Source: an uncultured Pelagibacteraceae bacterium | Lineage (GTDB): Bacteria > Pseudomonadota > Alphaproteobacteria > Pelagibacterales > Pelagibacteraceae | Reading direction: 5' to 3' | NCBI GenBank assembly: GCA_902521005.1 | Contig: CABYPZ010000007.1 | Span: forward strand, 1-56,612 | DNA length: 56,612 nt | Shown here: piece after piece, positions 14,623 through 14,650 of the stretch | Layout of the letters: each line of letters opens with the position of its first letter | Numbering within the stretch: the stretch's first letter is position 1 | The notes under the pieces: generated by a model | What the model was told of the DNA's origin: nothing | Database searches by the model: none | The model's input: only the letters and a program-made list of their open reading frames with translations | Program-made: the position numbers and the translations under genes

Positions 14623-14650
14623 TTTATAATCATTCTAAACTGTAAGTCAA
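14623..14650 (-). promoter_or_regulatory. katG promoter overlapped by an Irr iron-control element
   Basis: On the minus strand TTGACT (14645-14650), a 16-bp spacer and TATAAA (14623-14628) form a sigma70-like promoter ending about 11 nt before the katG ATG. TTTAGAATGATTATAAA (14623-14639) covers its -10 region. It differs at one base from the iron-control element consensus TTTAGAA-N3-TTCTAAA bound by Irr in other alphaproteobacteria. The irr gene ends only 63 bp away. Confidence 0.65.

Follow-up and report, generated by a model that had tools for sequence, protein, structure and literature searches.

A conserved Irr-type box over the katG promoter of SAR11 bacteria and a putative switch for peroxide scavengers

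The Fur-superfamily regulator Irr, the ICE boxes that it recognizes and effects of Irr on catalase are already known. The best comparison for the locus described here is provided by the Irr/ICE systems of Bradyrhizobium, Rhizobium and Rhodobacter (mbfA, ccpA and bfr), with which it shares an Irr-family regulator, an ICE-type repeat at the core promoter, a repressor geometry and autoregulatory boxes. The SAR11 system differs from these in that few sites were found, all of them at peroxide scavengers and at irr itself, with no iron-storage, heme-synthesis or uptake gene among them; in addition, its half-sites are asymmetric (TTTAGAAT / ATTATAAA), and the iron response of the one gene measured in a relative is opposite in sign. 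A second comparison is with the peroxide regulators PerR of Bacillus and PerRA of Leptospira. Here the likeness lies in the targets (catalase-peroxidase, rubrerythrin and peroxiredoxin) and in five regulatory metal ligands that are conserved in SAR11 Irr, and PerRA, like SAR11 Irr, has no structural CxxC. Unlike PerR, however, the SAR11 protein falls in the Irr branch by sequence, and its box carries the G of the ICE. The third comparison is with the irr–rubrerythrin–GlpC-like gene order of other Alphaproteobacteria, which has the same position by irr (often beside fabA) and an ICE-like box before the scavenger gene, whereas the lineage studied here has katG instead of the rubrerythrin operon. 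In the titles, abstracts and selected passages by which we judged the literature, a scope outside which the alphaproteobacterial iron-regulon comparison of Rodionov 2006 lies, we found no report of an Irr box on katG, of a class-wide irr–rubrerythrin order or of an exchange between katG and rubrerythrin in SAR11.

The DNA analyzed (the window) is a stretch of 56,612 nucleotides from an uncultured Pelagibacteraceae bacterium. On its minus strand, irr (15118–14702) is followed, after a gap of 90 bp, by katG (14611–12410), which encodes a catalase-peroxidase HPI of 733 residues that scores above the cut-offs of the HPI family models TIGR00198 and NF011635 of NCBIfam (1231 bits against a cut-off of 981, and 1152 bits against 770). 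The first-pass annotation of this DNA had placed irr as the next gene upstream of katG, and had described an ICE match at all but one of 14 fixed bases that covered the -10 box of a TTGACT-N16-TATAAA promoter; reading the minus strand confirmed each of these points. The putative Irr-type operator, TTTAGAATGATTATAAA (14639–14623, minus strand), agrees with TTTAGAA-N3-TTCTAAA at 13 of the 14 fixed bases, the miss being the C of TTCTAAA. This predicted binding site spans most of the promoter spacer, which begins after the -35 hexamer TTGACT (14650–14645, minus strand), as well as the -10 hexamer TATAAA (14628–14623, minus strand), which is the outer half of the box. The exact sequence is also present in a sister genome (G079). 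Two further features of the region can be mentioned. The end of the -10 hexamer lies 11 nt from the ATG of katG (position 14611), so that the mRNA leader would be just a few bases long, and a ribosome-binding site is absent from this stretch (14611–14628); several relatives have a longer katG leader with AGGAG. Close to the irr–katG pair, after the fab operon, are a gene for methionine sulfoxide reductase (msrB) and one for a CopI-like cupredoxin (17850–18845).

The box is conserved ahead of katG in relatives of this bacterium. Within the genus, katG was detected in 76 of 151 genomes. Of the 30 katG loci examined first, which include that of the window, all 29 with a readable upstream region match TTTAKAATNATTMTAAA at zero or one mismatch, even where the distance to the start codon has shifted. 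Twenty further katG loci comprised 18 with a readable irr, every one of which has the box behind irr at zero or one mismatch, and two with boxes at one and two mismatches. The box is kept even at a locus (L224, genome G015) whose KatG is only 59% identical. In a non-redundant set of 79 SAR11 irr–katG loci, the first 130 bp after irr contained the exact box in 60 cases and a one-mismatch box in 16, whereas 6550 trials with dinucleotide-shuffled sequence yielded no exact match and a one-mismatch match in 0.18%. The first-pass annotation had named a lack of conservation ahead of katG in related strains as grounds for rejecting its reading, and the box at 76 of 79 loci removes that objection.

The promoters also follow a common plan. 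What we call box B, the position occupied by the box in the window, starts 10–12 nt after the start of TTGAC and its outer half supplies the -10 element, position 13 of the box always being A. At loci that also have a second box (box A), it begins 20 nt upstream of TTGAC in 86 of 88 cases, so that in many relatives TTGAC is flanked by two boxes approximately 31 bp, or three helical turns, apart from centre to centre; the katG promoter of the window contains box B alone. Within the genus of the window, the ICE-type G half-site TTTAGAAT points toward the -35 element in both boxes, and the outer half is ATTATAAA or similar. Most irr promoters of the genus contain a box near the start codon, which implies autoregulation; in the window and in a sister locus (L037) only a remnant with four mismatches is left there (in the window TTTAATAACATTATAAT, in the sense of irr, within the divergent irr–fabA intergenic region at 15119–15188). 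Two unusual loci came to light in these comparisons. In one (L096, 3915–4100), a two-box promoter of the katG type stands behind irr but katG is absent and the next open reading frame resembles an Asp/Asn beta-hydroxylase, which looks like a recent loss of katG. In the other (L303, genome G285), which belongs to another family, an irr–katG pair of the type found in the window's genus lies away from fabA, which suggests the transfer of a cassette or a misbinned contig.

We searched for other members of the regulon by pattern, and in chosen stretches of the genome. The strict pattern occurs at exactly two sites in the genome. One is the katG promoter and the other, on contig C4, is a letter-for-letter copy of TTTAGAATGATTATAAA positioned on the -10 element of a promoter (TTGATA-N16-TATAAT) in front of prx6, which encodes a 1-Cys peroxiredoxin of 220 residues. 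This second box is kept in the sister genome G079 and is limited to part of the genus: 9 of 23 non-redundant prx6 promoters have it at zero to two mismatches, compared with 1.5% in shuffled sequence. At one mismatch or fewer the genome contains six ICE sites, but the one-mismatch counts equal those of a reversed-pattern control and therefore represent the noise level; nearly all of the extra sites are intragenic, including one in polA, and a site on contig C16 (TTTAGAACTATTCTTAA) was discarded because it falls within coding sequence. When we examined the exact sites that we had fetched together with the one-mismatch sites of six genomes, no recognized iron or heme gene was found behind a box, and those sites that belonged neither to an irr–katG or irr–rubrerythrin locus nor to prx6 lay in coding sequence or outside genes.

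What lies behind the box in SAR11 is, at nearly every locus, a gene for a peroxide scavenger, either katG or rubrerythrin and rarely a Prx5-like enzyme. In genomes that do not contain katG, rubrerythrin and then a GlpC-like iron-sulfur protein are encoded directly behind irr, with the same arrangement of TTGAC plus box, and in one locus (L039) a Prx5-like peroxiredoxin gene fills the slot. Of 42 genomes that were at least 85% complete and in which both genes were scored, 28 had only katG (a few of these calls being fragments at contig ends), 13 only rubrerythrin, none both and one neither, an exclusion for which Fisher's test, with kinship ignored, gives p = 5e-10. Among 20 rubrerythrin loci that were fetched, irr is directly upstream in 19, the twentieth being unreadable. 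When the katG and rubrerythrin labels were mapped onto trees built from short alignments, they changed at least four times on the Irr tree (two changes being forced by well supported branches) and ten times on the FabA tree (four forced), indicating that swaps recurred. Another genus of the same family (g117) has the irr–box–katG arrangement too, with a divergent KatG (53–58% identical); an independent acquisition of katG by that genus was considered and dropped, because in the tree this KatG groups with that of the window's genus at a support of 93. Judged by gene order, then, SAR11 puts katG, and once a peroxiredoxin gene, where rubrerythrin stands behind irr elsewhere. Because a published survey found katG in most offshore genera (PMC12636525), the exchange of katG and rubrerythrin may be ecological.

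Beyond SAR11, the arrangement with rubrerythrin prevails. Among the top-scoring Irr loci of the class (L194–L223), rubrerythrin lies downstream on the same strand in 24 of 30 and is accompanied by a GlpC-like gene in 23, and an ICE-like box is often present behind irr, in two cases as an exact match (L201 and L209). In one family of the order (f114), most loci read irr–ICE–rubrerythrin, and several members have the fully symmetric box TTTAGAATGATTCTAAA. In this family (L304–L311) a Fur-type box, TTGATAATAATTATCAA or a close variant of it, adjoins the ICE at the start of the gap between irr and rubrerythrin, raising the possibility that the rubrerythrin operon there may respond to both Fur and Irr. 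Taken together, irr–rubrerythrin looks like an ancient module, and the presence of an ICE at the loci of family f114 and of the wider class suggests that the order irr–ICE–rubrerythrin is probably old and that katG is a replacement. An ICE also precedes katG elsewhere in the class: with start codons placed by tblastn, 9 of 28 class katG loci have one upstream at one to three mismatches, against about 1% in shuffles, and none has one at four. Control of katG by Irr thus probably extends beyond SAR11.

The presumed binder of the box is the 138-residue product of irr (14702–15118, minus strand), which is 96% identical to the Irr of single cell AG-916-I17, the closest named relative of this bacterium. 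It matches PF01475 with 82 bits (cut-off 23), and its best NCBIfam models are IrrA (126 bits, cut-off 150) and Irr (118 bits, cut-off 170); since these scores, although far higher than those of the PerR and Fur models, fall below the cut-offs, we assign the protein to the Irr branch and not to a formal equivalog. The gene context agrees with this assignment, irr being beside fabA with a peroxide scavenger next, as in other Alphaproteobacteria. The HHH (HxH) motif is present in all 77 SAR11 and all 25 class Irr sequences. The window's Irr has a single cysteine and hence no CxxC pair, so that the structural Zn(Cys)4 site of PerR is absent, as it likewise is from Leptospira PerRA (PMC8638967). 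That cysteine, Cys27, is not followed by proline, so the Cys-Pro heme regulatory motif of the B. japonicum subtype is also absent; this motif is missing from many Irr proteins and is hence not family-defining. The PerR ligands H37, D85, H91, H93 and D104 correspond to H38, D87, H93, H95 and D106 of the window's Irr and are invariant in the 77 SAR11 sequences, bar one gap at H37. The conserved aspartate of Irr proteins had been noted before (PMC8638967), and because these ligands are common to all of the Irr proteins checked, they do not diagnose peroxide sensing. An AlphaFold model of the protein (mean pLDDT of 90) has the Leptospira peroxide regulator 5nl9 as its nearest solved fold and also matches Fur and PerR structures. 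The genome encodes three Fur-family proteins in all, namely Irr, a separate Fur (31117–31545, minus strand), which we place outside the proposed switch, and a third paralogue. No OxyR was recognizable in the genome, which is 86% complete, and OxyR was rejected as a controller of katG because the sole LysR-type protein found has no cysteine. The suggestion of the first-pass annotation that this is a genome type with few regulators is borne out by these counts.

Could the resemblance to an ICE be an accident of the AT-rich sequence around the -10 element? Taken alone, the match is unremarkable: 0.31 matches at one mismatch or fewer are expected in the window, 26 of 100 shuffles of it reach one, and genome counts at one mismatch do not exceed the reversed-pattern control mentioned above. 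Nevertheless, the box itself is a secure observation because it is conserved in relatives, at a fixed spacing and far above the rate in shuffles, and because the identical 17-mer lies at the peroxiredoxin promoter. Given that boxes also occur at irr and prx6 promoters and, as box A, away from the -10 element, a chance origin is so improbable that conservation over divergent promoters may be said to refute it already. A different concern is that the true binder might be Fur or the third paralogue, with Irr merely a neighbor. All three are Fur-superfamily proteins, which recognize 7-1-7 repeats, and the inverted repeat over the -10 element is of this type. Moreover, the box of B. subtilis PerR has the consensus TTATAATnATTATAA, and the SAR11 box is as close to this as it is to the ICE. 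However, in family f114 a perfect Fur-type box occurs separately beside the ICE, which sets the two motifs apart; the box tracks irr across the class and sits in irr promoters; and the G of the half-site is near-invariant and is a feature of the ICE. We consider another binder very unlikely, and control of katG by Irr is well supported by the sequence comparisons.

What the switch responds to is a separate matter. The first-pass annotation proposed that Irr represses the heme enzyme KatG when iron or heme is low, in keeping with the classical model in which Irr is bound to DNA at low heme or iron and represses katG to save heme, and in which plenty removes Irr and turns katG on. Irr proteins studied elsewhere do bind the ICE when heme is absent and, at low iron, act as repressors of proteins that contain iron (PMC7762939); the HHH motif, a proposed heme binder, is invariant here; and because KatG depends on heme and rubrerythrin on a diiron site, an iron-sparing model still fits most of the targets. 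Yet such a model predicts targets that are iron enzymes and lower expression in low iron, and the observations run counter to this. The same box is found on peroxiredoxins, which need no iron, as well as on the non-heme rubrerythrin, and iron and heme genes are missing from the sites examined. In P. ubique, rubrerythrin mRNA rose 1.57-fold (P 0.025) on iron chelation, a modest rise seen in one array study, while the abundance of Irr was unchanged under iron limitation (PMC2864753). The P. ubique gene presumably sits behind irr, as 19 of 20 rubrerythrin loci of its relatives do, and a metal-loaded or peroxide-sensitive repressor would give such a rise. Together with the absence of the Cys-Pro motif, these points make the classical model unlikely in our view, and the repression at low iron or heme that the annotation had proposed is not supported. 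That relatives swap in another peroxide-removing enzyme suggests peroxide defence and not just the saving of iron; in R. sphaeroides, an irr mutant has higher H2O2 resistance, although Irr there does not bind katE (PMC3413700). We therefore favor, as the probable reading, that the box is a genuine operator of the adjacent Irr and part of a peroxide-linked scavenger switch built on Irr. Irr on the box would block RNA polymerase, so that the downstream gene would be made only once Irr leaves. Release would follow a peroxide-linked event, in which the HHH metal or heme site may be oxidized or its cofactor lost, and would not result from iron or heme supply alone. The switch would then amount to a small regulon of H2O2 scavengers whose effector can be exchanged.

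It is possible, although we advance it only tentatively and doubt that it holds in full, that SAR11 Irr is a dedicated H2O2 sensor, an analogue of PerR on the Irr branch that commands only H2O2 scavengers and itself. The effector slot behind the conserved operator would be exchangeable among katG, the rubrerythrin operon and a peroxiredoxin, such that the peroxidase changes and the control stays. This role would be ancestral in Alphaproteobacteria, as irr–ICE–rubrerythrin, and the control of iron and heme would be derived in rhizobia. SAR11 bacteria are among the most abundant on Earth and are part of the debate over the removal of H2O2 from surface seawater. If the reading is true, catalase in SAR11 would not be simply present or absent; instead, nearly every irr-bearing lineage seen would keep one regulated scavenger slot behind irr, filled with KatG or rubrerythrin, and whether Irr originated as a peroxide or as an iron regulator would become testable.
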